Shown here piece after piece: positions 1 through 64,000 of a DNA stretch of 64,000 nt. The DNA lies in the NCBI GenBank assembly GCA_026874595.1, contig CM049318.1, positions 44,434,456 through 44,498,455 of the forward strand, given 5' to 3'. Source of the stretch: Sipunculus nudus (taxonomy: Eukaryota > Annelida > Sipuncula > Golfingiida > Sipunculidae). The translations under genes and the position numbers were made by a program. The notes beneath the pieces were generated by a model that was not told the DNA's origin, ran no database searches, and saw nothing but the letters and a program-made list of their open reading frames with translations. Each line of letters opens with the position of its first letter. The first letter of the stretch is position 1.

Positions 1-1293
1 ATCTCTCTTGAGAAAAGAGCATTAATTTATTTTACAGAAACAGGAAGGTAGGTGGCGCCACCTGTCTGGTTTTCACAAAAATTTTCGAAGATGGATAGAC
101 ATGCTAAATTTAACAATTTCAAGTTTTAAATCCACATGTCAATCCTAGCTTGAATTATCATCCCGGAACCAAATTTTTGGACAGATGGCCCCTATGACCT
201 TCACCTTTGACCTTGTGCCCTCAAAATGGACAGGGGTCTTCCTCTATTGGCTGGTGAACTATATGTGCAAGATAAAAGGTCTGAGATGAAAAGTTTGGCT
301 GAAAATGCATCAACAATCTTTTTAAAGATGTGTTCTGTGACCTTGGCCTTAGACCTTGAGACCCTAAAATCAATTTTTTAATGGGACATATATAAGTCAA
401 GTTTGAGATCCATACATCAAAAATAGCTGGAATTATCATTCGAAAACTAATTTTTTACAGATAGCTCCTGTGGCCTTGACCTTTGACCTTGTGACCCCAA
501 AATTGATATGGATCATCTACTATTGGCACGTAAGCTATATTTCAAGATGGAACATCTGGGATGAAAAGTTTGGCTTAAAATGCATCCACAATATCTTTAA
601 AGATGCGAGTCCAGTGACCTTGACCTTTGACCTGATGACCCTAGAACCTATAGGGTTCTTACTTTATTGGTGGGCCATACATAAGTCACGTTTGCAATCC
701 ATAAGGCTATCAACACTGGAGATATCATAAGAGGTGTGTGATTTTCACCAAATATGGAAATATTAAAAATCAAGGCCACTCTCATGGTAAAGGTCATGAC
801 CCAAATTTAAATAGACCTCATCCCCAAACCCAACTCTCTACATGTTCATAATATGAAAGAAATCTGTCCATTAGTTTTTTATTTATAAAGCTCACAGTAC
901 TGTCAAGTGGCAATTATGGGGGTATTAAAAGGCGTAAAAACAAGAAAAGGATAATAGGTGGCGCCACCAGTTTCCAGCATATCACAAGGCCATCCAAGAT
1001 CTTTGGTCACCTTGATTTTTGGACCAGTCCATGCAAGCTTTCTTGAGATATTTAAGAATTTGTGTTATTTTCAGCAAAAATGGACCTATTCAAGGTCAAG
1101 GTCACTCTCCTAGCAAAGGTCATGACCTCATTTTAAATAGGCTTTGTCCTCTTACTATATCTATGCAAATGTAAAGTTTAAAAAAAGATCAGTGAAATAT
1201 TTTTTTAGTTATCCAGCTCACAAGATTTTTCTGTGGCAGCGGTGACAGGACTGTCGTGAAACCATAGTATCCCAACTTTGTCTGTGGATACAA
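1..1293 (-). mobile_element. Family C Helitron-like element, left part outside window
   Basis: Two kinds of internal tandem unit are visible. One is a ~145-bp unit carrying TGACCTTTGACC (exact at 477 and 621). The other is a ~330-bp unit carrying GGTGGCGCCACC (exact at 51 and 957). The right terminus matches other C copies: a diverged form of ATAGTATCCCCAGAC followed by GTCTGTGGATACAA ending at 1293. In other copies of this family the left end carries the hairpin and CTAG that mark the 3' end of a Helitron read on the minus strand, so this copy is placed on the minus strand. The left end lies before base 1. It is more diverged than the C copies at 23-26 kb. Confidence 0.7.
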
Positions 1294-1587
1294 GTAAACT
1301 ATGAGAAACCTTTTTGACGTACACAGGAATAAATTCCCCACATATTTAAATGAAAATATTATGATCATAACTGTCAACTTACCAATGAAAGGTGTTCTCA
1401 AAAAGTAGGACATTAAGGAAAATTTTACAAACTAAAATTCTTTTTTTTTTCAGATAACAACCATTCAAAGTTTTTTAAAGCTTTGTTTCAATTTTAAATC
1501 ATGGTGTTTGGCATTCATTTTTTGTCGGCAGAGTGTTACACATTCAGAGGAATTTAACAGAGATGTTATACAGATAAAATGAAAAAA
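1294..1587. other. Short single-copy spacer
   Basis: No repeat family is recognised here. A long T-run followed by CAG near 1441-1453 resembles a plus-strand splice acceptor. The minus strand has a good donor-like GGTAAGT near 1376-1382. No open frame connects to either, so no exon is called. Confidence 0.4.
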
Positions 1588-2530
1588 CAAGGGACCCATG
1601 GGTCACGGCACTCAGCTGACTGTGATTGGACTATAAATGTATCATCATTGTGATACTATATCCAGACAATAAAGCTTATGAATGGAACCTGACTGATGGA
1701 TTAATATGGAGTAAAATATAGTGGTTTATATTTTATTAATTTAGGAGGGGCTGACAATAGCGATATATTTGAGCAAATATGAATGTAATGACAGTATACT
1801 AAGCAGTGATGGAATGATGAAAGGAGTTCAACCTGACATGAAGGGATTTATGAATTTGTTACTGTGTGACATGATATCTCTTCAGTCTTGACAAGGTACA
1901 TTATTTTGATGCCCACCATGTCTACATAAGACACAATATTGACATAATTTCTGGCATGTACATAGGTACCTATGGACAAATAGTTATGCAAAATATAAAA
2001 ATATGAATACATCTGATTCATCTTGTTCTTGTTTACTGAGGCTGACATTGAGATAGGGTTTGGAGAAGGGAACAGTGAGGGCAGCAAGAAGGGGTGGATG
2101 TAGAGAGAAACGGAGAGGAAAGAGAGGGGAAGGAGCATTCAACAGTACTTGAACACCTGGTAGGTTAAAATCTAAAATATTATGAAATGTAGATAAAGTC
2201 TGAGAGCAAGAGGTAACCTAGCTAGGCCATAGTTGGTTGATGTGATTGAAGAAATGGTTGCAAATAATATTTTGAGATCTTACCATGCGTTTCCATTGGT
2301 TCCATTTTTTTTAGCTGTTGACAGTTCAACAGTTTACACATTTGTCTAATGAGATCCAATTTATTTAATAAATCTTTTTTTTCAATTTTATGATATGTAT
2401 ACAGTTGCCATAATGTCTCCACTCTACAAGTGGAATGAATTGATGGGGGGGAGATTTTGATATTACACCTCTGTCTCTCTGTAGATATTTTCTTTAATTA
2501 TTAAATTTTATGCTATAGCAATAGAACTAT
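1588..2530 (+). mobile_element. Family G element, 5' part
   Basis: Starts with CAAGGGACCCATGGGTCA and CACTCAGCTGA, the same type of 5' head as families A and F, but with a different body. The body matches 51976-52560 (shared stretch around GGTTTATATTTTATTAATTT and AGGAGGGG). Its distal part, about 2170-2460, matches 61975-62345 (AGATAAAGTCT, GACAGTTCA, AGTTTACACATTTG). No 3' hairpin is found before the DE element starting at 2650, so the 3' end is missing or unrecognised. Bases 2531-2649 hold nothing I can assign. Confidence 0.55.
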
Positions 2531-2649
2531 TGTTCACAGTGCCAAGGAGCAAGGACTCAGTACGGTGAAGAAGGGGATGGTGGGAGTTACAACACCCTTG
2601 CATATACATACTGGATATGAAATTAAATTCAACAGTGCTTATAAGAAAA

Positions 2650-4855: not shown

Positions 4856-4894
4856 TCCTGTTTCTGTTTTGAATGTAACTAACTTGTTTGGACT

Positions 4895-5923: not shown

Positions 5924-6660
5924 CAACCCATTGTAAAGGCCTTGGCATATGTAAAATATTGATTTATAATTATATGCATACTTGTTCATTTTTATTTTTA
6001 AATATATTTCACATAAATTTATTTTATAGTACATACTTCCGTTTAGATTTAATCTTCGTTCTCATAGTCAATAAATAAAGATTTTCAATGTAACTAAAAA
6101 TTGTCTATAGAGGAATTATTCATGATTATTGCATATTATTATTTAGTATCATAGCTGACAATTCAATCCTTTATGTATGTATCAGGAGAGGAATTTATGT
6201 AGGGCTGAGTCCTGTTTCCAAATCCTTATAAATATATCCAATAAAAATACTTTTTACGTCAAGATTCTGGACAGAACCAAACTGGAGACAAAAGTTCCCC
6301 ATCTTCTCGGGTGTATATGTTCATTTGGATGTGATGCCATGTTTTATTCCATCACATAATACATCTCGAGAGTGAACAGAGAGGTGGTAAACTTTACAAT
6401 AATGGAAGCAAGCATGACTTTTATTCTTCAGGACTTCTTTATTCCATCACATAATACATCTCGAGAGTGAACAGAGAGGTGGTAAACTTTACAATAATGG
6501 AAGCAAGCATGACTTTTATTCTTCAGGCATGCCCTTCTTCAGAGCAGCAAAAGAAACATAGGATAATTTAGGAATATGGAGAGTGATTTAAACTTACATC
6601 AATTTTACAAAACAAATAAAATATTATTTAAATCACTTTCACAATAAATTTGGTATCAAA
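5924..6660 (-). repeat. Right arm of the long inverted repeat
   Basis: Reverse complement of 4272-4855, running from CAACCCATTGTAAAGGC to ACAATAAATTTGGTATCAAA. It is about 150 bp longer than the left arm, because of a 95-bp tandem duplication, an extra segment of about 20 bp and small indels. It ends at the family A head at 6661. Confidence 0.8.
6345..6527 (+). repeat. 95-bp tandem duplication inside the right arm
   Basis: The segment from TATTCCATCACATAATACAT to TTTATTCTTCAGG occurs at 6345-6432 and again at 6440-6527, apparently identical, joined by ACTTCTT. The left arm has one copy, so the duplication arose after the inverted repeat formed. Confidence 0.9.
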
Positions 6661-7042
6661 CAAGGGACCTATGGGTCACGACGCTCAGCTGTTATATATG
6701 ATAAAAAAATATTTTTTAGAAATGAGGCACATGCTGGTTTTGTGTGGTAATAAATATAAGCTGTATTATGAGTTGTATGTATGATTTTGATAGTATCTTT
6801 GGAGACAGGGAAGAGGATTGATTTCATTTATTTTATTAACAAATGGAGTGCTATTGTCACACAGATTTTGACTTGGCCATATAACTTATAAGCAGAACAT
6901 GTAATATAAGAGTTTAACTATTTATTAAAAAAATTACAAATATTGTCCCAAATATAATTTTTATTAAAAATAATAAGAGAATCATATGATTTTTTAAAAT
7001 GAAATATAACTGATATGATTATTAAAATAATATTAAAGAATA

Positions 7043-7066
7043 TATTCATGAATGCATTCATGAATA
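7043..7066. repeat. 24-bp perfect palindrome conserved in family A
   Basis: TATTCATGAATG followed directly by its exact reverse complement. The same palindrome lies at 16883-16906, 19244-19267, 48836-48859, 55495-55518 and 58622-58645. A shorter remnant is at 34192-34209. Confidence 0.9.
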
Positions 7067-9172
7067 CATTTTGAAAGTATTTGCACCAGTATTCATATAC
7101 TTTCATTTTTACCTGAAATCCCATTCTTTATGCAAGAAATTTTATAATGGAGTACATAATCATATACGTATTTAAATACAATTACAAAGTATTTGCACCA
7201 TGTCTGGTATTTATTCAGTTTTCACCAAACAATGATTTTGAGAATCCAGAATATACAAAATTCACACATTTAAATAATGATCATAAGTACCTGGTTTTAT
7301 GGCTTTTATTTATATTAAAAAATAACTGTAAAAAATTCATTTTGGACTAATTTCACATCAATGTACACACTAGACACAGTAGGAATCTAGGTTAATATTA
7401 TCAACTGCATCTTTGTCTATCATTAATTTCCTTCATATAATCCCTAATGATTAGTAATGAATAATATGATTTACTTCTTTATCATTAAAAATGAACTGAA
7501 AAATGCCATAGGTGACTGCATGGTGTTATTTGGAATATGTGATATTCTACCCATCGATACAAGATTCTTATATCATCAGTAACTGCAAGTTAATTTCCTG
7601 TTATTATAAACTAACAAATGCCTTTTCTATTTTTCTTTAATTTGTTATTAAAAACCAAGAAAAATTTATTAATTTATTGTTTATTGTTATGTTGTTTGTT
7701 AAAAGTACTAGATGAGTTGGGTTGGACACCTGGATCAACTGTGGCTGGCCATAAGCTGCCTGGATTCTCGCCTCAAGCGTGCATAATTTGATGAAAGGTC
7801 AACAAGGTCAACATACAGGTGACTCAAGAGGGGCTGGAGAGAGCCAAAGTCAGACAGGGTCTCATAAAAAACATTAATAAAAGCTACAATATTTGGCCAA
7901 TTTCTTTCAGCTTTCTAAACTAAAAAGCTGAAATCCTTATGTGTGCATGATATGAGAATTATATCAACAGTGCTCTCAGGAAACAAACGTGCCATGGTCA
8001 CACTTGGGCAAAATTTAAGGTACTAATTTTATATTCATACTAATAACTTATAAAATTTGAAAAATTCAGAACTAATTTTGGGTATTCAATTGAATCTTGA
8101 TTAAATAATGTTACATCCCTGACAATAAAATCTCTAGCTTCAGCAATGCCCTTGTTAAGGGAGTAAATATATTTCTTGATTTTTTACAAAGTGCATTATG
8201 TTTGGGCCCATAACTTAAAAAAATACACAATACTGACATCATTTCTGGCATGTGCATAGCGAATGTATAGAAAAATATGTATATTATATATGATCAAAGT
8301 CAGATCTGTGGTTTTGATATTAGGCAGTCTTAAAGTGTAACAATGAGTTTTTAATGGAAAAATGAAGTTTTTCATTGATATCTCGAAGGAATTAAGTCCT
8401 AGTGACCAAATTCTTGGCATGGTAGGGGATTTTGGAGAAATCTAACTGTATGCTAAATTTAAGGAACTTAGAGCTGAAGCTCGGGAGCTGAGCTCTAGCA
8501 AACTGCATAACACTAGCAATATGTGACATGGTGCTTGAAAACTTGAATAAAATCTACAGTTTTTGATCAACTGGTTTCAAATTTTTGGTGTTAACAGTTG
8601 AAATGCTAACAAAAACAAGCTGAGAAAATTAAATCCACAGCAGTTACAGCAAAAAAACGTGCCATGGTCAAAGTTGGGCAAAATTTAAGGTACCAATTTT
8701 TTATTTTTGCTAATATTTTTAAAAATTTAAAAGATTTTGATCTAATTTTGGGTATACAATTTAATTTTGATTAATAAAAGTAATATTACTGGAAAAAAAA
8801 GTGCTTAGCTTTAACAAGTTTTGTGTTAAGTGATAAAATTTCTTTCCTGATTATTTACAAAATGCATTATGTTTGGGCCCATAACTTTTTTAAATTATAT
8901 AATACAGACCCAATTTCTGGCATGTACATAGGAATTATATAGAGGATTATTTATAGGAAATATGAGGAAATACAGATGAGTGGTTTTGATATTAGGCAGT
9001 CCTGAAGTGTGAAAATAGGTTTTTAATAAAAAATTGAGGTTTTTCCTTAATTTCTCAAAGGAATGAAGTCGCAAAGACCCAGTTTTCGGCTTGGTAGGAG
9101 ATCTTGGGGACATCTAACATTATGCTGAATTTTGGATTCCTAGGTCTTACGGTTTCAAAACGTGCCACATCT

Positions 9173-9206
9173 ACGGACGGACGGACGGACAGACGGACGG
9201 ACGATG
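9173..9206 (+). repeat. (ACGG)n microsatellite of family A
   Basis: Tetranucleotide tract with one ACAG interruption. Its length differs between A copies; the tract near 19025-19084 is about 60 bp. Read on the minus strand it gives the four-residue repeat RPSV, a spurious translation. Confidence 0.95.
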
Positions 9207-9225
9207 GACAATGGACCACGACTAT

Positions 9226-9254
9226 AGCTCAGATGACTTATAGTCAGCTGAGCT
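9226..9254 (+). terminator. Family A 3' stem-loop
   Basis: AGCTCAGATGACT and AGTCAGCTGAGCT form a 13-bp stem with one mismatch around the loop TAT, followed by AAAAA. This hairpin is repeated at the end of every complete A copy (for example 19102-19130 and 21455-21483) and, with small changes, at the end of the B copies. It matches the position of the rolling-circle 3' hairpin, not a transcription terminator. Confidence 0.85.
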
Positions 9255-9259
9255 AAAAA

Positions 9260-10488
9260 TCATGTACTTTCAAGTGGCAATGATGGGGTATTAATTTTCA
9301 AGGTCAAGGCCACTCTAATAGGAAAGGTCATGACCCCAATTTATGAATACATCATCCCATAACCCATGTCTATGTATATGCATAATATGAAAGAAATCTG
9401 TCCATTAGTTTTTGACTTATAATGCTCACAGGTTATAAATGTACTGTTAAGTGGCAATAATGGGGTATTAAACGGCACGAAAACAAGTAAAAGAATAACA
9501 GGTGGCGCCACCTGTTTTCGGAACATGACATTACTATCCAAGATCTTCGGTCAAGTTGATTGTTGGACCAATGCATGCATCCCTTATTGAGAAATTAATG
9601 ATTTTGTGTGATTTTCACCATATATGGCAATATTCAAGGTCAAGGCCACTCATTGGAAAGGTCATGACCCCTATTCAAATAAACATTATCCTATAACCCA
9701 TATCCATGTATATGCATAATATGAAAGAAATTTGTCCATTAGTTTTTGACTTATAATGCTCACAGTACTAATAAATGGCAATGATGGGGTATTAAACGGC
9801 ACAAAACAAGTAAAAGAATAACAGGTGACGCCACCTGTTTCCGGTACATGACAATACTTTCCAAGATCTTTGAACATGTTGATTTTTGGACCAATGCATG
9901 CATCCCTTATTGAGATATTAATGATTTTGTGCAATTTTCACCATATATGGCAATATTCAAGGTCAAGGCCACTCTCATAGGAAAGGTCATGACCCCAATT
10001 TAAATAAACATCATCCCATAACCCATATCTATGTATTTGCATAATATGAAAGAAATCTGTCCATTAGTTTTTGACTTATAATGCTCACAGTACTGTCAAG
10101 TAGCAATTTTGGGGATATTAAACGGCATGAAAACAAGTAAAGAATAATAGGTGGCGCCACCAGTTTCTGGAACATGACAACCCTATCCATGATCTTCGAT
10201 CAACTTGATTTTGGGATCAATCCATGCAAGTTTTCTTGAGATATTTAAGAATTTGTGTGATTTTCCCCAAAATTGAACCTATTCAAGGTCAAGGTCACTC
10301 TCTTAGTTGAGGTCATGACCTCATTTTAAATAGGCGTTGTCCTCTCACCCATATCTATACATATACCAAGTTTGGTAAAGATCCGTGAAATATTTTTTGA
10401 GTTATTGTGTCCAAAAGAAATCTCTGCGGCGGGGGCGGCGCGACCGTGCCTAAACCATAGTATCTCCAGACTATGTCTGGCGATACAA
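9260..10488 (-). mobile_element. Family C element, left end missing
   Basis: Three ~330-bp monomers, each with AAGGTCAAGGCCACTC and a GGTGGCGCCACC palindrome (exact at 9501 and 10150, mutated to GGTGACGCCACC near 9822). A CGG-rich tract at about 10430-10443 and the C terminus TATGTCTGGCGATACAA close it at 10488. The next base is T, so on the minus strand the element is preceded by A, as Helitrons prefer. The CTAG-bearing end is absent; an A element abuts instead. Confidence 0.75.
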
Positions 10489-11460
10489 TTAATTATTATA
10501 AGAATTATTAAGGGGATTATTCTTGTAAAATATTAAACAAATTGGCCACAGTGGCTTAAGTCAAAAAATGTTTTGCAGGTTTATAACTCATATGGGAAAA
10601 TAAAGCAAAACGGCTAAGTTAAGCTTCCCATAACTCAGCCAAAAATCACTGAACCAAAACCATTTGAACAAACTTGAATTAACAACATCTAAGGATAATT
10701 AATGTGCGAGATTTAAGAATTTGGCCCAGTGGTTTTTGAGAAGAACATCTTTGTAGCCGCTGAGCTAAAATGGGCTGTTATGGCATATGACTAAATTCAG
10801 CTTCCCATAACTCAGCCAAAAGTCACTGAACTGAGACCATTTTAACAAACTTCAGAAAGCACTACCCTAGGATCATTTCTGTGCGATATTAAACAATTTG
10901 GCCATATGGTTTCAGAGAAGTTTTTTGTAGCTGTCAGTATGATATGGGCACTGATGACCCCCGTACAAAAAAAGGCTGATGCAGGTGGCGCCACCAATAC
11001 CTCAATTTCAGATATGACTCATGTGACCAACATTTGCATAAAATTTGGTGATGATAGCTCCAGCCGTTTCTCAGATTGTAATTTTAGTATGCTTTTTTGG
11101 ACAGATGACTAAGTTAAACTATCTGTAACTCTGCCAAAAATCACCGAACTTAAACCATTCGAACAAACTTGAGAGAGATTGTTTCAGGGATCATTTCTGT
11201 GAAATATTGGACATTTTGGCTGAACAGTTTTGGAGAAGAAGATTTTTAAAGCTTTTTTAGCTTTTTCCATATAAAATCTAAGAAAATGCAGTTAGCCAAA
11301 AAATAAGCAAAATCCGACAGAGTTTTTTAGATGACTAATTTTTTGCATAAAATTTCGTGATTCTAACTCTTGCCGTTTTTAAGATAGTATAGGTTAACGT
11401 ACAGACGACGGACGACGGACGACGCCACACCATCGCATAAGCTCACAGGTTCGCTAAAAA
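10489..11460 (+). mobile_element. Family DE element, 3' part
   Basis: Contains the ACTCAGCCAAAAATCACTGA units, one GGTGGCGCCACC at 10984, and the full 3' end: a GACGACGG-type tract, CACCATCGCATAAGCTCACA and GGTTCGCTAAAAA. Its 5' side is cut where the C terminus joins at 10488. It joins family A sequence at 11461, and in intact A copies the same place reads AAACTAAAAAGCTGAAATCC, so this DE end sits inside an A copy. Confidence 0.75.
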
Positions 11461-13802: not shown

Positions 13803-14165
13803 CAAGGCCTACAGGCTTAATGCAAACCTGTGCAATGGGATATTCACCAGGTATAATTTGCTTCAATGCTGGGCCATTACTTTACAAGTACACGTGTAAC
13901 ATGTATATGAACAATTCAAGTACTAAACATTTTGAACAAGTTCCAATTACATAAACATCACTGCTGAAATTCTGGCATGGGTACACACAACACAAAAATG
14001 ATTGTAGGTGGCACCACCAGTCTTGTTTACGATGAAGCTATCAGAGATGAATACATATGCCCAATTTTAGGCTGATATATCAAACCCCTTATCAGATATA
14101 AGAAGAGATATACACTGTGCAAAAAGTACTGTAGGTGGCAACACCAGTCTTGTGAACGAGTAAGC
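13803..14165 (+). mobile_element. Family DE element, 5' part
   Basis: Head CAAGGCCTACAGGCTTAATG and CAAACCTGTGCAATGG, then the AGGTGGCACCACCAGTCTTG monomer. Similarity to other DE copies stops near GAACGAGTAAGCCATCAAAG at about 14165, where unrelated DNA begins. Confidence 0.7.
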
Positions 14166-47061: not shown

Positions 47062-50000
47062 ACAAGGCCTACAGGCCTAATGCTTCTATGCTTGACCATT
47101 ACTTCTCATGTATATGAACAATGCAAGGACTAAACATTTTGAATAAGAAACAATTACACAAACATCATTGCTCAAATTCTGGCATGGGTGCACACAACAC
47201 AAAAATGGTAGCTGGCACCACCAGTCTTGTATACAATGACGCTATCATAGATATATACATATGCCCAATTTCAGACTGATATATTTGACCCCTCCTCAAA
47301 AATAAGCAAGGACACACACTGTGCAAAAATTATTGTAGGTGGCACCACCAGTCTTGTATACGACAAAGCTATTCGATATGTATAAATATGCCAAATTTCA
47401 GGCTGATATATCAAATTCCTCCGTAGAAATAAGCAGGCACAGACACTGTACAAAAGTCATTGTAGGTGGCGACACCTGTCTTGTGAATGAGAAAGCCATC
47501 TAAGACACACAGACGGGTTAAAATAGCAGGCCAATACATCAAACTTACCTTCAGTCTGATGCATGGGGCTGACAATGCTAAGGTGAGAAAGGCAGTTGCC
47601 CCCAGTAAACTGTGACAAATTGCTAGCACTGAGTGAAGTTATGACCTGCACCTGGCAAGACTGAGTGCACTTTTGACCTGTACCTGGCTGCACTGAGTGA
47701 ACTATTGACCTGTTGCATAATCTGACACAGTTGACTGTCTGCCAAAGCTATAAATAGATCCAGGCTGAACTTTGGTGCCAAATCTGATGCACTGGGCAGT
47801 CTGCCAAGGCTTTGAATAGAATGCAGCTACTGCACTGAGTGAACTCCTGACCTATATCTGGCTGCACTGAGTGAACTCTTAACCTGTTGCCTTATCTGAT
47901 ACAATTGGCAGTCTGCCAAAACTATAAATAGATCCAGACTGACCTTTGGCCTGTTAACAAATCTGAAATAGTAGCCACACGATTGCACAAGCTCACACAT
48001 TGGCTCCACATGCAGCCCTGAGGGGCATGACATACATATTCATAAACTTTTTATCAAAATATCTAGAATAATAAAAGATGCAGTCCTTTCATTGTTAAAA
48101 AGGTCCAATAATTCTACCAAAAATCTTTCAAGTAAACTTGAACAAAGGCCCCCTAAGAATAATTTTTGTGCAATGTTACAGAAGTTATAATTGAAACAAT
48201 AAATTTGTAGAAGAACATTGTTGCAGTCCTAAGTTTGAAATAGACATAATAATGGCCATAAGACCAACTTCAGCTTTTCAAGACTCAACCAAACATCAAC
48301 AAACTCAATCTATTCTGATATGATTGAAAGAACGATGTCCTTAGTTTATTCTTTTGAAAAACTGAACGCTTCAACTTGACAGATTCATCATGAACATTTT
48401 AAGCTGAAAGAAGCTAAAATTATGAGGTTTTTGCCCATAAAACAAGGGACCTATGGGTCACGACGCTCAGCTGTTATATATGATAAAAAAATATTATTTA
48501 GAAATGAGGCACATGCTCGTTTTGTGTGGTAATAAATATAAGCTGTATTATGAGTTGTTGTTTAGCTTATGTATGATTTTGATAGTACCTTTGGAGACAG
48601 GGAAGAGGATTGATTTCATTTATTTTATTAACAAATGGAGTACTATTGTCACACAGATTTTGACTTGGCCATATAACTTATAAGCAGAACATATAATATA
48701 AGAGTTTAACTATTTATTAAAAAAAAATACAAATATTGTCCCAAATATAATTTTTATAAAAAATAATAAGAGAATCATATGATTTTTTTAAATGAAATAT
48801 AACTGATATGATTATTAAAATAATATTAAAGAATATATTCATGAATGCATTCATGAATACATTTTGAAAGTATTTGCACGAGTATTCATATACTTTCATT
48901 TTTACCTGAATTCCTATTCTTTATGCAAGAAATTTTATAATGGAGTAAATAATCATATTCGTATTTAAATACAATGACAAAGTATTCGCACCATGTCTGG
49001 TATTTATTCAGTTTCACCAACCAATGATGTTGAGAATCCAGAATATACAAAATTCACACATTTAAATAATGATCATAAGTACCTGGTTTTATGGCTTTCT
49101 ATTTATATTAAAAAATAACTGTAAAAAATTCATTTTGGACTAATTTCACATCAATGTACACACTAGACACAGTAGGAATCTAGATTAATATTATCAACTG
49201 CATCTTTGTCTATCATTTATTTCCTTCATATGATCCCTTATGATTAGTAATGAATAATATGATTTACTTCTTTATCATTAAAATTGAACTGAAAAATGCC
49301 ATAGGTGACTGCATGGTGTTATTTGGAATATGTGACATTCTACCCATCGATACAAGATTCTTATATCATCAGTAACTGCAAGTTAATTTCCTGTTATTAT
49401 AAACTAACAAATTCCTTTTCTATTTTTCTTTAATTTGTTATTAAAAACCAATAAAAATTTATTAATTTATTGTTTATTGTTATGTTGTTTGTTAAAACTA
49501 CTAGATGAGTTGGGTTGGACACCTGGATCAACTGTGGCTGGCCATAAGCTGCCTGGATTCCTGTATGCCTCGCCTCAAGCATGCATAATTTGATGAAAGG
49601 TCAACAAGGTTAACATACAGGTGACTCAAGAGGGGCTGGAGAGAGCCAAAGTCTGACAGGGTCTCATAAAAAACATTAATAAAACTAACAATTTTTGGCC
49701 AATTTCTTTCAGCTTTCTAAACTAAAAAGCTGAAATCCTAATGTGTGCATGATATGAAAATTTGTCAACAGTGCTCACAGGACACAAACGTGCCATGGTC
49801 ACAGTTGGGCAAAATTTAAGGTACTAATTTTATATTTATAATAATAACTGATAACATTTGAAAAATTCAGAACTAATTTTGGGTATTCAATTGAATCTTG
49901 ATTAAATAATGTTACATCCCTGACAAAAAAATCTCTAGCTTCAGCAATGCCCTTGTTAAGGGAGTAAATATATTTCTTGATTTTTTACAAAGTGCATTAT

Positions 50001-51975
50001 GTTTGGGCCCATAACTTAAAACAATTACGCAATACTGACATCATTCTGGCATGTGCATAGAGAATGAAAAATATGTATATTATTTATGATTAAAGTCAGA
50101 TCAGTGGTTTTGATATTAGGAAGTCTTGAAGTGTATCAATGGGTTTTTAATGGAAAAATGAAGTTTTTCATTAATATCTCGAAGGTATTAAGTCCTAGTG
50201 ACCAAATTCTTGGCATGGTAGGGGATTTTGGAGACATCTAACTGTATGCCGAATTTAAGGAACTAAGAGCTGAAGCTGGGGAGCTGAGCTCTTGCAAACT
50301 GCATAACACTAGCTTGATGTAAACAATATGTTACATGGTGCTTGAAAACTTGAATAAAATCTACAGTTTTTGATCAACTGGTTTCAAATTTTTGGTGTTA
50401 ACAGTTGAAATGCTAACAAAAACATGCTGTGAAAATTAAATCCACAGTACTTACGGGAAAAAAACGTGCCATGGTCAAAGTTGGGCAAAATTTAAGGTAC
50501 CAATTTTTTATTTTTATTAATATTTTAGAAAATTCAAAAGATTTTCATCTAATTTTGGGTATACAATTTAATTTTGATTAATTAAAGTTATATTACTGGA
50601 AAAAAGGTTGATAGCTTTAACATTTTTTGTGTTAAGTGATCAAATATCTTTCCTGATTTTTTACAAAATGCATTATGTTTGGGCCCATAACTTTTTAAAA
50701 TTAAATAATACAGACATAATTTCTGGCATGTACATAGGAACTATATAGAGGAATATTTATGGTAAATATGAGGAAAAACAGATGAGTGGTTTTGATATTA
50801 GGCAGTCCTGAAGTGTGAAAATAGGTTTTTAATAAAAATTGAGGTTTTTCCTTAATTTCTCAAAGGAACAAAGTTGCAAAGACCCAGTTTTCGGCTTGGT
50901 AGGAGATCTTGGGGACATCTAACATTATGCCGAATTTTGGATTCCTAGGTCTTACGGTTTCAAAACGTGCCACATCTACGGACGGACGGACGGACGGACA
51001 GACGGACGGACGACGGACAATGGACCACGACTATAACTCAGATGACTTATAGTCAGCTGAGCTAAAAACAGGTCAATATAGGTGGCACTACAAAATCTGC
51101 AACTTCAAATTTGAGTCATGTGACCAACATTTGCACTATACTTGGTCATGTTAGCTTCTGTCATTTCTGATTACTATGTCAATATGCTTACTTGGCCAAA
51201 TTGACCAAGTTCAAATCCATGTAACTCAACTAAAATTAATCAAATGCAAACCGTTTGAACAAACTTGAGAGGGCTTGCCTCTGGGATCATTTCTGTAAAA
51301 TATTGAACAATTTGGTTGGACCGTTTACAAGAAGACTTTTAAAGGTTTTTCAGCTTTTTCCCTATAAAATCTAAGTAAATGTAGATAGCAAAAAAAAATT
51401 AGCTGAATCCCACAACATTTGATATGTGACAGATATTTGCATAAAATCTCGGGAATGGTAGCTCCTGCTACTCCTCAGAAATTATGGGTTAATGTACAGA
51501 TGACCAATGACCCCCCTACAAAAAAGGTCAATGCAGGGGGTGCCACCAATACCTGAATTTCATATATTGCTCATGTGACCAACACTGGCATAAAATTTGG
51601 TGATAATAGCTCCGGCCGTATCTGAGATTGTCATTTTAGTATACTTTTTTGGACAGATGACTAAGTTCAACTTCCTGTAACTCAGCAAAAAAATTCACCA
51701 AACTTGAACCACTCGAACAAACATGACAGAGATGGTAAAAAAGATTATTTCTGTGAAATATTGAACAATTTGGCTTGACCGTTTCGGAGGAGATGATTTT
51801 TAAAGGTGTTTTAGCTTTTTCTCTATAAAATCGAAGAAAATGCAGAGTTTTTCAGATGGCTTATTTTTCGCATTAAATTTCATGATGCTAGCTCCAGTCA
51901 TTTTTGAGATAGAATGGGTTAACGTACAGATGATAGATGCCGCCACACCATCGCAATAGCTCACAGGTTAGCTAA
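47062..51975 (+). mobile_element. Family DE element, complete, split by a family A element
   Basis: Head ACAAGGCCTACAGGCCTAAT; end CATCGCAATAGCTCACAGGT then TAGCTAA. Without the A insert at 48443-51068 it is about 2.29 kb. Left flank TTTGCCCATAAA and right flank ACAGGTCAATATAGG restore the uninterrupted GCCCATAAAAAACAGGTCAA seen at 26817. The part of the body just after the head is deleted relative to other copies (CTAATGCTTCTATGC instead of CTAATGCGAACC), so the 5' subterminal repeat is lost. Confidence 0.85.
48443..51068 (+). mobile_element. Family A element, complete
   Basis: About 2.63 kb with head CAAGGGACCTATGGGTCACG, the palindrome at 48836, two ~675-bp monomers, a (ACGG)n tract at about 50979-51017 and the 3' stem-loop. 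It is closest by eye to the inner A copy at 16487 (both read GTATGCCGAATTTAAGG and TTGATGTAAACAAT). It interrupts DE and is therefore younger than it. Confidence 0.85.
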
Positions 51976-53711: not shown

Positions 53712-54634
53712 CTAGATATTTCTTGGCACCGCAGTCCGCAGGTGCCATAGTATCCCCAGACAATTAATCCCCCCCCCCCCCCTTTAAGAATAGGCCCCCC
53801 ATCTTCAGCAACAATTAATATCAGACCACACTCATAGAAAAGGTCATTCTCATAGAAAAGGTCATGATCCAAATTTCAATATACATCATCCCCTAACCCA
53901 TGTCTATGTATATGCATAATATGAAAGAAGTCGGTCCATTAGTTTTTGACTTATAATGCTCACAGGTTATAAATGTACTGTTAAGTGGCAATGATGGGGT
54001 ATTAAACGGCATGAAAACAAGTAAAAGAATAACAGGTGGCGCCACCTGTTTCCGGTACATGACATTACTATCCAAGATCTTCGGTCAAGTTGATTTTTGG
54101 ACCAATGCATGCATCCCTTATTGAGAAATTAATGATTTTGTGTGATTTTCACCATATATGGCAATATTCAAGGTCAAGGCCACTCATTGGAAAGGTCATG
54201 ACCCCTATTCAAATAAACATAATCCTATAACCCATATCCATGTATATGCATAATATGAAAGAAATTTGTCTATTAGTTTTTGACTTATAATGCTCACAGT
54301 ACTGATAAATGGCAATGATGGGGTATTCAACGGCATGAAAACAAGTAAAAGAATAACAGGTGGCGCCACCTGTTTCCGGTACATGACAATACTTTCCAAG
54401 ATCTTCGAACATGTTGATTTTTGGACCAATGCATGCATCCCTTATTGAGAAATTAATGATTTTGTGTGATTTTCACCACATATGGCAATATTCAAGGTCA
54501 AGGCCACTCTCCTAGTTGAGGTCATGACCTCATTTTTTGAGTTATTGTGTCCAAAAGAAATCTCGGCGGCGGCAGCGGCGGCGGCGCGACCGTGCCTAAA
54601 CCATAGTATCTCCAGACTATGTCTGGCGATACAA
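53712..54634 (-). mobile_element. Family C Helitron-like element, short copy
   Basis: Begins CTAGATATTTCTTGGCACC and ends TATGTCTGGCGATACAA, with about two and a half ~330-bp monomers, exact GGTGGCGCCACC at 54035 and 54359, and (CGG)n at 54564-54587. The hairpin stem (TGGCACC 53724-53730; GGTGCCA 53741-53747) is intact, but the loop is ten bases instead of three, through a duplicated GCAGTCC-type insertion. The left flank begins T on the minus strand; the right flank is A-rich. Confidence 0.8.
54033..54048. repeat. CAGGTGGCGCCACCTG palindrome (representative)
   Basis: Perfect 16-bp palindrome made of two E-box halves around GGCGCC. The 12-bp core GGTGGCGCCACC occurs exactly about two dozen times in the window and is found in families B, C, DE, F and H, whose monomers are otherwise unlike. 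Confidence 0.85.
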
Positions 54635-55100
54635 AAAATATATGTTTATCATATTTTTAAACTGGGACGGGGGGAATAACATAAAAGGGGGCAAAAACTG
54701 ATAGGTTTGAACCAGGGGCACATATTTCACACGATAACCGTTCATGCGCCTCTAACCAAATGGCCACGTTTACATTTAATTTCACGGATATTACCGGGAT
54801 TTATCAAATAAAAACTCTTGAAGACAGCGGTTTATCCTTTGTAGCTGCGGTTAAAAGCACTCTGACGATCTCCATTTAACCTTTGATGTCTTGTAGCACC
54901 AGGTCATGCCTGTGATCAGTGGTCCGTGCGAGGTCTGTCCCAAGTGGATTACTAGTATATGATCATCAGCTAATGTGATTTTTGTCCCGCTTACAAATCC
55001 TTCTTATTCTATAATTGAGTAAACAAAATATTATTGATTAATACACATTTTTTACCTCGAGTTCTATTGTTCTAATTAATTCATGCTGTAACAAGTGAAA
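54635..55100. other. Single-copy island with a tRNA-like relic
   Basis: No repeat-family match. It is bounded by the C terminus on the left and an A head on the right. A tRNA-like stretch lies at 54700-54772. Confidence 0.45.
54700..54772 (-). pseudogene. tRNA-like sequence (decayed tRNA or tRNA-derived SINE head)
   Basis: On the minus strand, TGGCCATTTGGTTAGAGGC resembles a pol III A box with a GCC/GGC D stem. It is followed by a possible 5-bp anticodon stem (CATGA with TCGTG, 7-base loop) and by TGGTTCAAACC, which matches the B box. The spacing is tRNA-like. The T stem does not pair and the base before the would-be anticodon is C, so it is not a functional tRNA. Confidence 0.35.
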
Positions 55101-57731
55101 CAAGGGACCTATGGGTCACGACGCTCAGCTGTTATATATGATCAAAAAATATGATTTAGAAATGAGGCACATGCTCGTTTTGTGTGGTAATAAATATAAG
55201 CTGTATTATGAGTTGTTGTTGTTTAGCTTATGTATGATTTTGATAGTACCTTTAGAGACAGGGAAGAGGATTGATTTCTTTTATTTTATTAACAAATGGA
55301 GTACTACTGTCACACAAATTTTGACTTGGCCATATAACTTATAAGCAGAACATATAATATAAGAGTTTAACTATTTATTAAAAAAATTACAAATATTGTC
55401 CCAAATATAATTTTTATTAAAAATAATAAGAGAATCTTTTGATTTTTTAAAATGAAATATAACTGATATGATTATTAAAATATATTAAAGAATATATTCA
55501 TGAATGCATTCATGAATACATTTTGAAAGTATTTGCACAAGTATTCATATACTTTCATTTTTACCTGAATTCCCATTCTTTATGCAAGAAATTTTATAAT
55601 GGAGTACATAATCATATTCGTATTTAAATACAATTACAAAGTATTTGCACCATGTCTGGTATTTATTCAGTTTTCACCAAACAATGATGTTGAGAATCCA
55701 GAATATTCAAAATTCACACATTTAAATAATGATAATAAGTACCTGGTTTTATGGCTTTTATTTATATTAAAAAATAACTGTAAAAAATTCATTTTGGACT
55801 AATTTCACATCAATGTACACACTAGACACAGTAGGAATCTAGATTAATATTATCAACTGCATCTTTGTCTATCATTAATTTCCTTCATATAATCCCTAAT
55901 GATTAGTAATGAATAATATGATTTACTTCTTTATCATTAAAAATGAACTGAAAAATGCCATAGGTGACTGCATGGTGTTATTTGGACTATGTGACATTCT
56001 ACCCATCGATACAAGATTCTTATATCATCAGTAACTGCAAGTTAATTTCCTGTTATTATAAACTAACAAATTCCTTTTCTATTTTTCTTTAATTTGTTAT
56101 TAAAAACCAATAAAAATTTATTAATTTATTGTTTATTGTTATGTTGTTGGTTAAAACTACTAGATGAGTTGGGTTGGACACCTGGATCAACTGTGGCTGG
56201 CCATAAGCTGCCTGGATTCTCGCCTCAAGCGTGCATAATTTGATGAAAGGTCAACAAGGTCAACATACAGGTGACTCAAGAGGGGCTGGAGAGAGCCAAA
56301 GTCTACCAGGGTCTCATAAAAAACATTAATAAAAGCTACAATATTTGGCCAATTTCTTTCAGCTTTCTAAACTACAAAGATGAAATCCTTATGTGTGCAT
56401 GATATAAAAATTATATCAACAGTGCTCACGGGAAACAAACATGCCATGGTCACAGTTGGGCAAAATTTAAGGTACTAATTTTATATTTATACTAATAACT
56501 TATAAAATTTGTAAAATTCAGAACTAATTTTGGGTATTCAATTGAATCTTGATTAACTAATGTTACATCCCTGACAAAAAAATCTCTAGCTTCAGCAATG
56601 CCCTTGTTAAGGGAGTAAATATATTTCTTGATTTTTTACAAAGTGCATTATGTTTGGGCCCATAACTTAAAAAAAATACACAATACTGACATCATTTCTG
56701 GCATGTGCATAGCGAATGTATAGAAAAATATGTATATTATATATGATCAAAGTCAGATCAGTGGTTGTGATATTAGGCAGTCTTAAAGTGTAACAATGGA
56801 TCTTTAATGGAAAAATGAAGTTTTTCATTGATATCTCAAAGGAATTAAGTCCTAGTGACCAAATTCTTGGCATGGTAGGGGATTTTGGAGAAATCTAACT
56901 GTATGCCAAATTTAAGGAACTTAGAGCTGAAGCTCGGGAGTTGAGCTCTAGCAAACTGCATAACACTAGCAATATGTGACATGGTGCTTGAAAACTTAAA
57001 TAAAATCTACAGTTTTTGATCAACTGGTTTCAAATTTTTAATGTTAACAGTTGAAATGCTTACTAAAACATGCTGTGAAAATTAAATCCACCGCAGTTAC
57101 AGGAAAAAAACGTGCCATGGTCAAAGTTGGGCAAAATTTAAGGTACCAATTTTTTATTTTTGCTAATATTTTAAAAAATTTAAAAGATTTTGATCTAATT
57201 TTGGGTATACAATTTAATTTTGATTAATAAAAGAAATATTACTGGAAAAAAAGAGCTTAGCTTTAACAAGTTTTGTGTTAAGTGATAAAATTTCTTTCCT
57301 GATTATTTACAAAATGCATTATGTTTGGGCCCATAACTTTTTTAAATTATATAATACAGACTAAATTTCTGGCATATACATAGGAATTATATAGAGGATT
57401 ATTTATAGGAAATATGACGAAAAACAGATGAGTGGTTTTGATATTAGGCAGTCCTGAAGTGAGAAAATAGGTTTTTAATAAAAAATTGAGGTTTTTCCTT
57501 AATTTCTCAAAGGAATGAAGTCGCAAAGACCCAGTTTTCGGCTTGGTAGGAGATCTTGGGGACATTTAACATTATGCTGAATTTTGGATTCCTAGGTCTT
57601 ACGGTTTCAAAACGTGCCACATCTACGGACGGACGGACGGACGGACGGACGGACGGACGGACAGACGGACGGAGGACGGACAATGGACCACGACTATAGC
57701 TCAGATGACTTATAGTCAGCTGAGCTAAAAA
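55101..57731 (+). mobile_element. Family A element, complete
   Basis: About 2.63 kb with head CAAGGGACCTATGGGTCACG, the palindrome at 55495, two ~675-bp monomers, a (ACGG)n tract from about 57624 and the 3' stem-loop ending 57731. It lies in otherwise single-copy DNA. It shares with copies 6661 and 58227 the short CTGGATTCTCGCCTCAAGC junction, so these three form a subgroup. Confidence 0.85.
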
Positions 57732-58226
57732 TGGCCCATCGGTATCAGTTAAGCGAAAGTTTTTTCTGTTTACATACATGAAGTCGCAATTCTGATAAAC
57801 CTGTTCCGATAAATTATCATGTTACTGCGACGTACTAAGACTTAAAGATGTGTTGTTATCAGAAGAACAGCGTAGACATTTGATTCATCTCCACATGCAA
57901 AGCAGTTTTAATCATAGCTACAATTACTGTTCATACGGACCGCCGTTGGTCACTGGCAAAAGCTAATATTGGCACAGTATGTTGGTGTACAAATTCATAT
58001 ATGTAATATAGAAAAATATGATTCAGGAAATTTATAGTGTGTGAACTAATGAAGGATGTGAACTGATGCAGACATTACGGTAATACCTTTATTTCACTTT
58101 CAAGGGAATAATGCATTTAAGTCTATATATAAGCCTATTTTTTTAGCATATCCACTTTTTTCATTAAGAAGTTTTATCTGAATCATTTTGTTTATTTACA
58201 AGTTTTATAAAAAAAAATGAAATAAA
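57732..58226. other. Single-copy spacer between two A elements
   Basis: Nearly 500 bp with no family match, no tandem repeat and no convincing open frame. It shows that the two neighbouring A copies are separate insertions and not one tandem array. Confidence 0.45.
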
Positions 58227-60756
58227 CAAGGGACCTATGGGTCACGACGCTCAGCTGTAATATATGATAAAAAAATATTTTTTAGAAATGAGGCACATGC
58301 TGGTTTTGTGTGGTAATAAATATAAGCTGTATTATGAGTTGTGGGTGTTAAGCTTATGTATGATTTTGATAGGATCTTTGGAGACAGGGAAGAGGATTGA
58401 TTTCATTTATTTTATTAACAAATGGAGTGCTATTGTCACACAGATTTTGACTTGGCCATATAACTTATAAGCAGAACATATAATATAAGAGTTTAACTAT
58501 TTATTAAAAAAATTACAAATATTGTCCCAAATATAATTTTTATTAAATATAATAAGAGAATCATATGATTTTTTAAAATGAAATATAACTGATATGATTA
58601 TTAAAATAATATTAAAGAATATATTCATGAATGCATTCATGAATACATTTTGAAAGTATTTGCACGAGTATTCATATACCATGTCTGGTATTTATTCAGT
58701 TTTCACCAAACAATGATTTTGAGAATCCAGAATATACAAAATTCACACATTTAAATAATGATCATAAGTACCTGGTTTTATGGCTTTTATTAATATTAAA
58801 AAATAACTGTAAAAAATTCATTTTGGACTAATTTCACATCAATGTACACACTAGACACAGTAGGAATCTAGATTAATATTATCAACTGCATCTTTGTCTA
58901 TCATTTATTTCCTTCATATAATCCCTAATGATTAGTAATGAATAATATGATTTACTTCTTTATCATTAAAAATGAACTGAAAAATGCCATAGGTGACTGC
59001 ATGGTGTTATTTGGAATATGTGACATTCTACCCATCAATACAAGATTCTTATATCATCAATAACTGCAAGTTAATTTCCTGTTATTATAAACTAACAAAT
59101 TCCTTTTCTATTTTTCTTTAATTTGTTATTAAAAACCAAGAAAAATTTAATAATTTATTGTTTATTGTTATGTTGTTGGTTAAAACTACTAGATGAGTTG
59201 GGTTGGACACCTGGATCAACTGTGGCTGGCCATAAGCTGCCTGGATTCTCGCCTCAAGCGTGCATAATTTGATGAAAGGTCAACAAGGTCAACATACAGG
59301 TGACTCAAGAGGGGCTGGAGAGAGCCAAAGTCTGACAGGGTCTCATAAAAAACATTAATAAAAGCTACAATATTTGGCCAATTTCTTTCAGCTTTCTAAA
59401 CTAAAAAGATGAAATCCTTATGTGTGCATGATATGAAAATTATATCAAAAGTGCTCTCAGGAAACAAACATGCCATGGTCACAGTTGGGCAAAATTTATG
59501 GTACTAATTTTATATTTATACTAATAACTTATAAAATTTGAAAAATTCAGAACTAATTTTGGGTATTCAATTGAATCTTGATTAAATAATGTTACAACCC
59601 TGACAATAAAATCTCTAGCTTCAGCAATGCCCTTGTTAAGGGAGAAAATATAATTATTGATTTTTTACAAAGTGCATTATGTTTGGGCCCATAACTTAAA
59701 AAAAATACACAATACTGACATCATTTCTGGCATGTGCATAGCGAATGTATAGAAAAATATGTATATTATATATGATCAAAGTCATATCAGTGGTTTTGAT
59801 ATTAGGCAGTCTTAAAGTGTAACAATGGGTTTTTAATGGAAAAATGAAGTTTTTCATTGATATCTCGAAGGAATTAAGTCCTAGTGACCAAATTCTTGGC
59901 ATGGTAGGGGATTTTGGAGAAATCTAACTGTATGCCAAATTTAAGGAACTTAGAGCTGAAGCTCGGGAGCTGAGCTCTAGCAAACTGCATAACACTAGCA
60001 ATATGTGACATGGTGCATGAAAACTTGAATAAAATCTACAGTTTTTGATCAACTGGTTTCAAATTTTTGGTGTTAACAGTTAAAATGCTAACAAAAACAT
60101 GCTGTGAAAATTAAATCCACAGCAGTTACAGCAAAAAAACGTGCCATGGTCAAAGTTGGGCAAAATTTAAGGTACCAATTTTTTATTTTTGCTAATATTT
60201 TAAAAAATTTAAAAGATTTTGATCTAATTTTGGGTATACAATTTTATTTTGATTAATAAAAGTAATATTACTGGAAAAAAAGTGCTTAGCTTTAACAAGT
60301 TTTGTGTTAAGTGATCAAATATCTTTCCTGATTATTTACAAAATGCATTATGTTTGGGCCCATAACTTTTTTAAATTATATAATACAGACCTAATTTCTG
60401 GCATGTACATAGGAATTATATAGAGGAATATTTATGGTTAATATGAGGAAAAACAGATGAGTGATTTTGATATTAGGCAGTCCTGAAGTGTGAAAAAAGG
60501 TTTTTAATAAAAAATTGAGGTTTTTCCTTAATTTCTCAAAGGAATGAAGTCGCAAAGACCCAGTTTTCGGCTTGGTATGAGATCTTGGGGACATCTAACA
60601 TTATGCTGAATTTTGGATTCCTAGGTCTTACGGTTTCAAAACGTGCCACATCTACGGACGGACGGACGGACGGACGGACGGACGGACAGACGGACGGACG
60701 ACGGACAATGGACCACGACTATAGCTCAGATGACTTATAGTCAGCTGAGCTAAAAA
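58227..60756 (+). mobile_element. Family A element, complete ends with an internal deletion
   Basis: The head and 3' stem-loop are intact, and the palindrome is at 58622. At about 58679 the sequence passes from GTATTCATATAC straight to CATGTCTGGTATTTATTCAG; other copies have about 105 bp between these points. Total length is therefore about 2.53 kb. The (ACGG)n tract is at about 60654-60703. Confidence 0.85.
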
Positions 60757-61968: not shown

Positions 61969-62345
61969 CTAAAATAATATCATTTGGAGATAAAGTCTAG
62001 GAGGAAAAGGTAATATAGGCCATGGCTGGTTGACATGATTGGTTTATATTAATAAGTAGGAAATTGTTTCAAATAATATTTTGTGACCAAACCATGCATT
62101 TCCTTATGTTAAAATAGAAGCATTTGATCAGTTTGTGACCATAAGATGAATATTAATACCATGATCATTGGTTGGCTTTTTTATAAACTGTTGACAGTTC
62201 AGTAGTTTACACATTTGTTCAATGGGCCCTTTTTTTAAATATATATATCATTGAACATATGAATTTTTTTATTTTATAAAATGTATACACTTGAAATATA
62301 ACTAATGTCCCCAGTCAACAGATGCAAGGACTTGGTGATGGTGGT
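61969..62345 (+). mobile_element. Family G-like fragment
   Basis: GGAGATAAAGTCTAGGAGG, GCCATGGCTGGTTGACATGA, AATAATATTTTGTGA and GTTGACAGTTCAGTAGTTTA match 2180-2345 of the first G copy in order. No head or 3' end is visible. Confidence 0.5.
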
Positions 62346-62996
62346 GGTTTGGGGGGGGGGGGGGGAGTGGAATGATTAAAGTTTAACATATGCAGTATTA
62401 CACAACTTAATATATAAGTTGCTTTCAGATTTCCGACTTTAATAGTTTAAATCCATACACAAACAGCATATGAAAATCATTTCAACACCCAGATATGAAA
62501 AATTTCATAATTAATATATATTTAATGATAACGGGGATATGATGGACAGACAGAGCTAATCACTTTATGTTTCATTCTTCTGAGGAAAGAATATGTTTCA
62601 ATCAGATCTTAATTTTTTCTTATCCAATTATTTTTTTTCAAAAAAATTTAACACATTTGCAATGAAAACTAATGTCCCAGTGCAGAGGTGCAAAGGAATC
62701 AATGGCGGGGGGGAGGGGGGGGGATCGGATTAACAAAAGTTCTGCATATACATACAGGGCAAAGCCTGATCTCCAATTCTGCTGAGGGGGGAAAATAATG
62801 AACAAATGTTTGTCTTAGATCCTCATTTTCTTATCACATCATTTTTTTTTTATTTTATGTTTATATTTATATATATTTCCAATATAAATTATATATCTGT
62901 ATTAAAGTTGATTAATAATACTAAATTGCATCATCATAAAACTCAATCAGATAACACCACATCATGCATACAAATGTATATTTATTTTTTACAACA
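62346..62996. other. AT-rich spacer with G-runs
   Basis: G-runs at 62351-62365 and about 62706-62724 follow two related stretches (AGATGCAAGGACTTGG and AGGTGCAAAGGAATCA), suggesting an old local duplication of about 370 bp. The remainder is low-complexity AT-rich sequence with no coding signal. Confidence 0.4.
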
Positions 62997-64000
62997 ACAA
63001 GACCTACAGGCCTTATGCAAACCTGTGCAAAGTTTGGGAGTATGAATGGAGGTTTTTTTTTTTTTAAATTTAATATTGATCCTTTTAAATCCTGCATATC
63101 TACCTTAGTCATTATGATTTCAGCAAAATGGACATTTTGGACCTGCAAGTTTCAGACTAGGACATTTTAAAACTAGAATATGGGTAGTCGACCAGTGACT
63201 TATGTGTATCCGCAGAAATCAGAGTGGGACGGGTGAAGTGAGGCATGGATTAAGTGGCATGGGGAATAGAGTGAGGTGTGTTGCATATTAGCATGGATGT
63301 CTACAGAGTAAACATGAATGTAGGTGGTGCCACCTGTCATAAAATCGAGAAAATTGTCCAGGATGTATAAACCTGCAAAATTTCAGGTGGATAAGTCAAA
63401 CCACTGCTGAGATATGAGTGATTTTATCACAAGGCAGATGAACAGATGGACGCTGTGCATAAGTGGTTGCAGGTGGCACCACTAGTTTTGCTTATGATGA
63501 AGAGGTATGTGAGATCTATACACATGCAAAATTTTGGCCCAATCAGTCAAACGGTTCCCGAGATATGACTATGATGTCTGCAGAATAAACATGAATGTAG
63601 GTGGCGCCAGCTGTCATAAAATCGAGAAAGCTGTCCAGGATGTATAAACCTGCAAAATTTCAGGTGGATAAAAAAAGTCAAACCACTGCTGAGATATGAG
63701 TGATTTTATCCCAAGGCAGATGAACAGATGGGTGCTGTGCATTCATGGTTGCAGGTGGGGCCACCAGTTTTGCCTATGATGAAGAGCTATGTGAGATCTA
63801 TACACATGCAAAATTTTGGCCCAATCGGTCAAACAGTTTCAGAGATATGAGCTTGGATGTCTGCAGAGTAAACCTGAATGTAGGTGGCGCCACCTGTCAT
63901 AAACCGAGAAAGTTTTCCAGGATGTATAAACCTGCAAAATATCAGGTGGATAAGTCAAACCACTGCCGAGATATGAGTGATTTTATCCCAAGGCAGATGA
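62997..64000 (+). mobile_element. Family H element, runs off the window
   Basis: Head CAAGACCTACAGGCCTTATG with GCAAACCTGTGCAAAG, then the same segment as 30740-31020 and ~278-bp dimeric units with GGTGGCACCACTAG, GGTGGCGCCAGCTG and exact GGTGGCGCCACC at 63883. The 3' end is beyond the window. Confidence 0.75.

Follow-up and report, generated by a model that had tools for sequence, protein, structure and literature searches.

The 64,000-nucleotide stretch of the Sipunculus nudus genome analysed here (contig CM049318.1, positions 44,434,456 to 44,498,455; hereafter the window), part of the contig that we number C13, carries arrays and smaller repeats that share a 12-bp palindrome, GGTGGCGCCACC, which in a minority of copies is extended to the 16-mer CAGGTGGCGCCACCTG. 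The carriers comprise families with arrays of 323-bp, 340-bp (two kinds), 278-bp (two motif sites) and 127-bp units, the smaller families F, G and H, and elements with an array of 177-bp units, in which the motif stands once, outside the array. No open reading frame longer than 133 amino acids is present in the window. Between families the palindrome is nearly invariant, whereas its flanks have diverged, and a protein-binding site is the best reading of this pattern. Because the strand label of a palindrome match is meaningless, the orientation of each site was read from its flanks. The motif sites, the arrays and their associated features are as follows.

51-62, + strand: motif, family H51, exact
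957-968, + strand: motif, 323-bp family, single copy, exact
2837-2975, + strand: 127-bp family, two sites 127 bp apart, 2 mismatches each
9173-9203, + strand: ACGG microsatellite preceding a 323-bp array
9293-10332, + strand: 323-bp family array, motif sites 9501, 9824, 10150
10457-10489, + strand: 3' terminal stem-loop of 323-bp-array element, 15-nt arms
10984-10995, + strand: motif, 177-bp-array family, exact
14007-14145, + strand: 127-bp family, two sites, 1 and 2 mismatches
15023-15034, + strand: 127-bp family, one site, 1 mismatch
15940-15951, + strand: motif, family F, 1 mismatch
21523-21534, + strand: motif, family F, exact
22487-22612, + strand: 127-bp family, two sites, 2 and 1 mismatches
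24502-24513, + strand: motif, 323-bp family, single copy, 1 mismatch
25088-26428, + strand: 323-bp family array, exact sites 25264, 25587, 25923, 26246
26556-26588, + strand: 3' terminal stem-loop of the element with the 25088-26428 array
26841-26852, + strand: motif, 177-bp-array family, 2 mismatches
27259-27270, + strand: motif, 177-bp-array family, 1 mismatch
28576-28587, + strand: motif, 177-bp-array family, exact, outside the 28200-28525 array
29655-29666, + strand: motif, 177-bp-array family, exact, outside the 29112-29571 array
31025-31953, + strand: 278-bp family array, two motif sites per unit (31103 to 31936)
36424-37490, + strand: 340-bp family array, sites 36532, 36871, 37212
37521-37532, + strand: motif, 340-bp family, exact, directly past the 36424-37490 array
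37913-37924, + strand: motif, 278-bp family, 2 mismatches
38119-38130, + strand: motif, 340-bp family, 1 mismatch
40861-41784, + strand: 340-bp family array, exact sites 40891, 41233, 41565
42065-42076, + strand: motif, family G, 1 mismatch, right flank common with the 323-bp family
42391-42402, + strand: motif, 323-bp family, 2 mismatches
43694-43705, + strand: motif, 127-bp family, 1 mismatch
45813-45824, + strand: motif, 177-bp-array family, exact, past the 45094-45680 array
46776-46787, + strand: motif, family F, 2 mismatches
47208-47484, + strand: 127-bp family array, sites 47211, 47338, 47465
51536-51547, + strand: motif, 177-bp-array family, 2 mismatches
53849-54509, + strand: 323-bp family array, exact sites 54035, 54359
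63295-64000, + strand: 278-bp family array, sites 63323 to 63883

The window holds 23 exact copies of the palindrome, in agreement with the roughly two dozen mentioned in an earlier note on this DNA. Sites with at most two mismatches number 58, against 0.23 expected and a maximum of 2 in 100 shuffles; two of them, at 10434 and 54580, lie in a tract rich in GGC, close to where 323-bp-array elements end on the 3' side, and probably do not represent the true motif. Throughout the genome (1.43 Gb in 153 contigs), exact copies number 111,729, or one in roughly 12.8 kb, versus 14 for the reversed pattern, a palindrome of equal base composition. Since this control has two CpG steps compared to one in the motif, the background is somewhat underestimated, but a factor of thousands cannot come from that, and the density is beyond chance, as the earlier note had held. 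Its remark that the motif is often extended to the 16-mer needs to be toned down: CAGGTGGCGCCACCTG exists but is a minority form, found in 6 of the 23 window copies, all in the 323-bp family, and in 4,777 of the 111,729 genomic copies (control: 0). Only 1,182 of the 111,729 copies have neither an A before nor a T after the motif. The proposed rule of one motif per monomer holds for the 323-, 340- and 127-bp families, but not for the 278-bp units, with two sites each, or the 177-bp arrays.

To what extent the motif belongs to these repeats can be judged from 30 sampled regions, all within the first megabase of contig C1, whose sites were assigned with the help of nine reference sets drawn from the window and one further locus (L001). 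All 53 exact sites in these regions fell into the repeat families, as did 20 of 22 sites in ten additional regions chosen for copies without the A before and the T after the motif. As far as sampled, the motif is thus a property of these repeats.

The anatomy of the carriers suggests that they are non-autonomous Helitron-like elements resembling the Cg_HINE elements discussed below. Of the seven ACGG runs in the window, four (9173, 21394, 41832 and 50978) are no more than about 520 bp away from an array or a motif site; the remaining three (19025, 57625 and 60654) are farther off. Terminal 3' stem-loops with 15-nt arms follow two arrays (10457-10489 and 26556-26588), and similar or shortened ends were recognized by eye in four more copies, all of these ends belonging to 323-bp-array elements. 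The genome contains 143 matches to the Helitron_like_N domain (PF14214), seven of which lie in open frames of more than 2,000 amino acids and possibly represent intact autonomous elements.

To compare the families, genomic copies were collected with motif-free queries, copies from the window and other loci were added, and ten family consensuses were derived, in which the motif was masked. Because only the best-scoring candidates were collected, the sampled copies are young. Profile hidden Markov models (HMMs) joined the consensuses B127, C278a, C278b and H51 in the register of the motif (best E 1.7e-10), likewise A323, G and H51 (A323-H51, E 1.4e-5) and, on opposite strands but in register, I340 and E177 (E 3.8e-4), all E-values referring to a set of just 11 short sequences. 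When alignments were extended from the motif, the score exceeded that of shifted anchors (60 per pair) at the 5% level in 28 of the 45 family pairs, with a mean z of 3.4 compared to 0.3 in the reversed orientation, where 5 of 45 pairs exceeded z 1.64; pairs with I340 are slightly circular in this comparison, as its orientation had been set after the opposite-strand HMM match. Omission of the nearest 4 or 8 bases left 26 and 28 pairs, respectively. The other 17 pairs, including most F pairs and several E177 pairs, stayed below the 5% level, and the gapped percent identity between families did not exceed that of shifted anchors (0.622 versus 0.617), which on that measure speaks against common ancestry. 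Nevertheless, the alignment in register of most pairs argues for a common ancestry that is now almost erased, and most families seem, by this sequence signal, to descend from a single ancestor. The earlier statement that monomers of different families cannot be aligned outside the motif is thus not confirmed for the masked consensuses, several of which align in register, although gapped identity gives no such signal. End-to-end alignment, which would point to simple common ancestry, was found in part, as some families can be aligned in register over about 120 bp.

Against this background of diverged flanks, the palindrome has stayed constant. It is complete (12/12) in nine of the ten consensuses and reaches 11/12 in the tenth, B127, with a mean identity of 11.8/12 over the 45 family pairs, whereas the flanks, compared ungapped in register, are 36% (0.362) identical. 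The adjacent columns are partly included: position -1 is A in all ten families, and positions +2 and +3 are G and T in eight of them. Within families, the picture is different. Among the 305 sites identified without regard to the motif, 179 retain it exactly. By mean identity, its conservation there scarcely exceeds that of the adjoining sequence (rank 17 to 48 among 81 windows), which partly bears out a doubt raised in the earlier note, while between families the contrast of 11.8/12 to 36% stands. The GCGC centre decays as a CpG, like the remaining CpGs of the elements: leaving aside the 127-bp set, whose centre contains no CpG, 75 of 285 sites in six sets have lost the central CpG, and other CpGs of the same stretches are lost in 157 of 450 cases (five sets).

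Selection on inserted copies was considered, but it is not seen in total identity, and a lower mismatch rate of the motif emerges only once CpGs are separated (75/3,084 non-CpG positions in the motif compared to 1,120/22,975 in the flanks, summed over sets). The difference persists at G/C-only non-CpG positions with homopolymer runs removed (65/2,454 versus 492/7,856), a comparison in which 2% to 55% of the flank windows, depending on the family, do as well as the motif, and it may in part reflect lineage structure and alignment slips in the flanks. Copies thus decay nearly freely within families, which places the constancy of the motif in the lineages that keep multiplying.

The simplest interpretation of a signal that active lineages hold and dead copies lose is that it acts in cis for multiplication. 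As the motif has remained near-invariant while its flanks diverged, we favour a protein site, and since the letters are kept rather than a fold, its reader would be a sequence-specific DNA-binding protein. Accordingly, the repeat units on these non-autonomous Helitron-like elements would form one old superfamily with the palindrome as its invariant core, which each active lineage would have to keep in order to multiply. With less certainty, the reader could be the CTCF protein of the host, with its zinc fingers 3 to 5 placed on the sequence YAGGTGGCGC, in which case the benefit to the elements might lie in an open chromatin state, in escape from silencing, or in making germ-line replication or transcription accessible to them. 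Overall, we give a probability of about 0.5 to a protein site with CTCF as the lead candidate, and the more specific proposal that CTCF itself is the reader is possible, if rather on the unlikely side.

The case for CTCF starts from a fit to YAGGTGGCRC, which we take to be the part contacted by fingers 3 to 5. It is seen in nine of the ten family consensuses, with the qualification that G has an A in place of Y and B127 an A for the second-last G. In the youngest 127-bp lineage, GGCGC has become fixed as GGCAC, a change that the CTCF consensus allows. Measured against the human consensus CCASYAGRKGGCRS, as quoted in PMC6746451, the families agree, on whichever strand fits better, at 10 to 13 of the 14 positions, I340 coming closest with CCTCCAGGTGGCGC. 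The pattern CCASYAGRKGGCGC, which corresponds to CCASYAGRKGGCRS with its last two positions set to GC, has 2,410 matches on both strands of the genome, compared to 17 for the control. A CTCF ortholog is encoded at C11:67037578 (L201), with 11 fingers counted by eye, 56% identity to the human query and CTCF (7w1m) as its best PDB match (E 2.2e-111). In the alignment with CTCF, the contact positions of its fingers 3 to 5 read as identical. Ahead of the fingers, an SVYDF stretch aligns with human CTCF, and YDF has a role in cohesin binding. The CTCF finger query also returned 325 matches genome-wide, revealing large clusters of C2H2 zinc-finger genes on C16, C7, C9 and C11, with many of the listed matches on C16.

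Several observations weigh against this reading. In seven sets, the identity of the motif ranks only 46, 48, 24, 17, 22, 18 and 39 among 81 windows. CpG decay is symmetric (28 C6T and 25 G7A changes at sites with at most one mismatch outside the 127-bp family), so that inserted copies show no strand preference, and all 20 young 127-bp copies lack the exact palindrome. With respect to CTCF, the CCAS part of its consensus is mostly absent from the families, eight of the matched positions come from the palindrome itself, the final ACC is kept although CTCF does not need it, and the degenerate R and K before GGC in the CTCF consensus are invariant between the family consensuses. Finally, 12 of 20 sampled CCASYAGRKGGCGC places lie in one further repeat family; over about 150 bp to either side, the other eight resemble neither this family nor one another, and they match neither the window nor any of the first 20 loci. 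That further family (L021-L023, L025, L027-L030 and L034-L037) carries a full CTCF consensus, which reads CCACTAGRGGGCGCTGCA at 9 of the 13 sites sampled from it.

The motif could instead be read by the machinery of the elements themselves, as a binding, priming or processing site of a Helitron-type Rep/helicase or a partner protein. Its retention at the level of lineages but not after insertion is what a transposition signal would show, the 177-bp-array elements keep one motif even though their array lacks it, and the Helitron_like_N frames described above provide a potential source of such proteins. However, the motif lies internally rather than at the ends, its number per element varies, and it is absent, even with one mismatch allowed, from eight stretches of 3.4-3.6 kb around Rep domains, which extend little beyond the Rep region; the end words of the window elements are likewise missing from these eight Rep-region stretches. 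Taken together, we regard this explanation as unlikely, albeit not strikingly so.

Common ancestry alone, with the palindrome as a functionless relic of the founder, appears quite improbable. It would agree with the alignment in register of most family pairs and with the modest conservation within families, but it leaves unexplained why a motif with a mutable CpG is intact in nine of ten consensuses whose flanks are near-random, and why the motif has fewer mismatches than its flanks at G/C-only non-CpG positions.

The earlier note had pointed to two E-box halves within the palindrome, which would make it a site for bHLH, Snail or ZEB proteins composed of two CAGGTG boxes. CAGGTG indeed begins 16 of the 23 exact window sites, and CACCTG ends nine. 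Yet four of the 23 have neither half, three of the ten families have a T and one has an A two bases ahead of the core, some consensuses have TAGGTG or CACCAG in place of an E-box half, and the central GCGC would be idle. We have therefore abandoned the E-box as a general rule and consider this version very improbable; of the host-factor site suggested earlier, the protein site remains the best reading.

Least probable, and by a wide measure improbable, is a role as structure or recombination seed through hairpin formation, template switching or unequal exchange: the 323-bp family folds well at the motif (-6.8 kcal/mol, z -2.5), but the other five of six folded stretches do not (z -0.8 to +0.7), so that the hairpin was discarded, and an outer pair that is A-A as often as A-T, next to letters that are kept, indicates that pairing is not what is conserved. 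The exchange of flanks, suggested by the mainly right flank common to A and G and the mainly left flank common to D and F, leaves no clear breakpoint hot spot, as flank clusters form 13 combinations at the motif (11 left, 8 right) compared to 12 (13, 11) and 11 (7, 10) at two control offsets, a slight excess given without a significance test. The recombination seed proposed in the earlier note thus finds little support.

Apart from the favoured protein site, the orientation of the elements deserves attention. When oriented by their flanks, all 58 sites in the window lie on the + strand, and 216 of 217 self-alignments of at least 350 bp within it are direct. For a wider view, we paired oriented insertions sampled elsewhere in the genome, after merging array members manually and excluding the window and C1:833812; 28 places came from a dense sample (C1:0.14-0.92 Mb). 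Neighbours less than 100 kb apart were on the same strand in 38 of 38 pairs (12 of 12 without the dense sample), compared to 8/13 at 100-200 kb, 8/19 at 200-500 kb, 13/20 at 0.5-1 Mb and 69/156 beyond 1 Mb. In nine of the 12 close pairs outside the dense sample, the neighbours belong to different families, so that local duplication offers no easy explanation, and nested head-to-tail insertion accounts for only the closest pairs. Insertion guided by the direction of replication forks would explain the coherence. A literature search by titles and abstract beginnings returned no report of such strand coherence.

Other repeats share the window with these elements. A 2.6-kb repeat is present in about seven full or partial copies (6655-9260, 16484-19136, 19131-21491, 33879-35951, 48437-51068, 55098-57732 and 58224-60756), mostly 87-97% alike, two of which stand head to tail at 19131. 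The window also contains 140 AGGTCA half sites, where 25 are expected from base frequencies, and 12 copies of TGACCTTGACCT, where about none are expected; these nuclear-receptor-like direct repeats lie among the repeats described here, for instance at 23576-24248 and 40313-40597. As to the 127-bp family, whose consensus motif GGTGGCACCACC departs from the palindrome, 35 of 39 other places among the matches listed are 100% identical over 96-97 bp, which marks it, by sequence identity, as a recent burst.

Repeat-carrying relatives of Helitrons are known from molluscs, and the success of quite different monomers in one kind of element calls for an explanation. A near-invariant 12-mer that marks the winning lineages provides a handle for finding the protein that binds it. 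If this protein were CTCF, the sipunculid would represent a natural experiment in which a transposon multiplies the core of a main architectural site of animals. Strand coherence, if genome-wide, would be a trace of the target choice of the elements, a by-product that may matter more than the motif. In the most far-reaching scenario, a rolling-circle superfamily would have been able to spread only by seeding the genome with palindromic CTCF-core sites, which at one in every 13 kb now exceed 100,000. These sites would shape the folding of the host genome or the progress of its forks, and the elements would have inserted on one strand over domains of about 100 kb, as if fork-guided; as a whole, we hold this to be improbable.

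As far as the sources describe them, conserved short segments in diverged mollusc satellites, the arrays of HINE elements and the spread of host-factor sites by Helitrons are already known (PMC5139131, PMC7492417, PMC6927752). Within the literature searched, what is new is the near-invariant palindrome together with its high copy number, the ten families that share it and its agreement with the CTCF core; a text search for the letters of the 12-mer returned an unrelated endochitinase paper as its sole match.

Rodent B2 short interspersed elements (SINEs) have spread CTCF sites and are thus comparable as transposons that multiply such sites, but they belong to another element class, and in our case only the core of the CTCF consensus is carried, as a palindrome. 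The heat-shock elements distributed by Caenorhabditis Helitrons are similar in that a rolling-circle element spreads a host-factor site in dense clusters; there, binding of HSF-1 was demonstrated (PMC6927752), whereas the present motif spans many families and its reader is a predicted one. The bivalve satellite superfamily BIV160/Cg170, compared by its description rather than by the letters of its segments, likewise consists of diverged monomer families joined by two short conserved segments, and some of its satellites contain palindromes (PMC5139131). The closest likeness in anatomy is to the Cg_HINE elements of Crassostrea gigas, described as non-autonomous Helentrons with satellite-like arrays, some of them with GTCY, GTCC or GTCK microsatellites (PMC7492417). 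As described there, they too have a central array of few tandem repeats, microsatellites with four-base units, among them GTCC (complementary to ACGG), a palindrome past the array, and several families whose monomer motifs are partly common. What sets the Sipunculus elements apart from that description is a single 12-bp palindrome common to ten families (PMC7492417).

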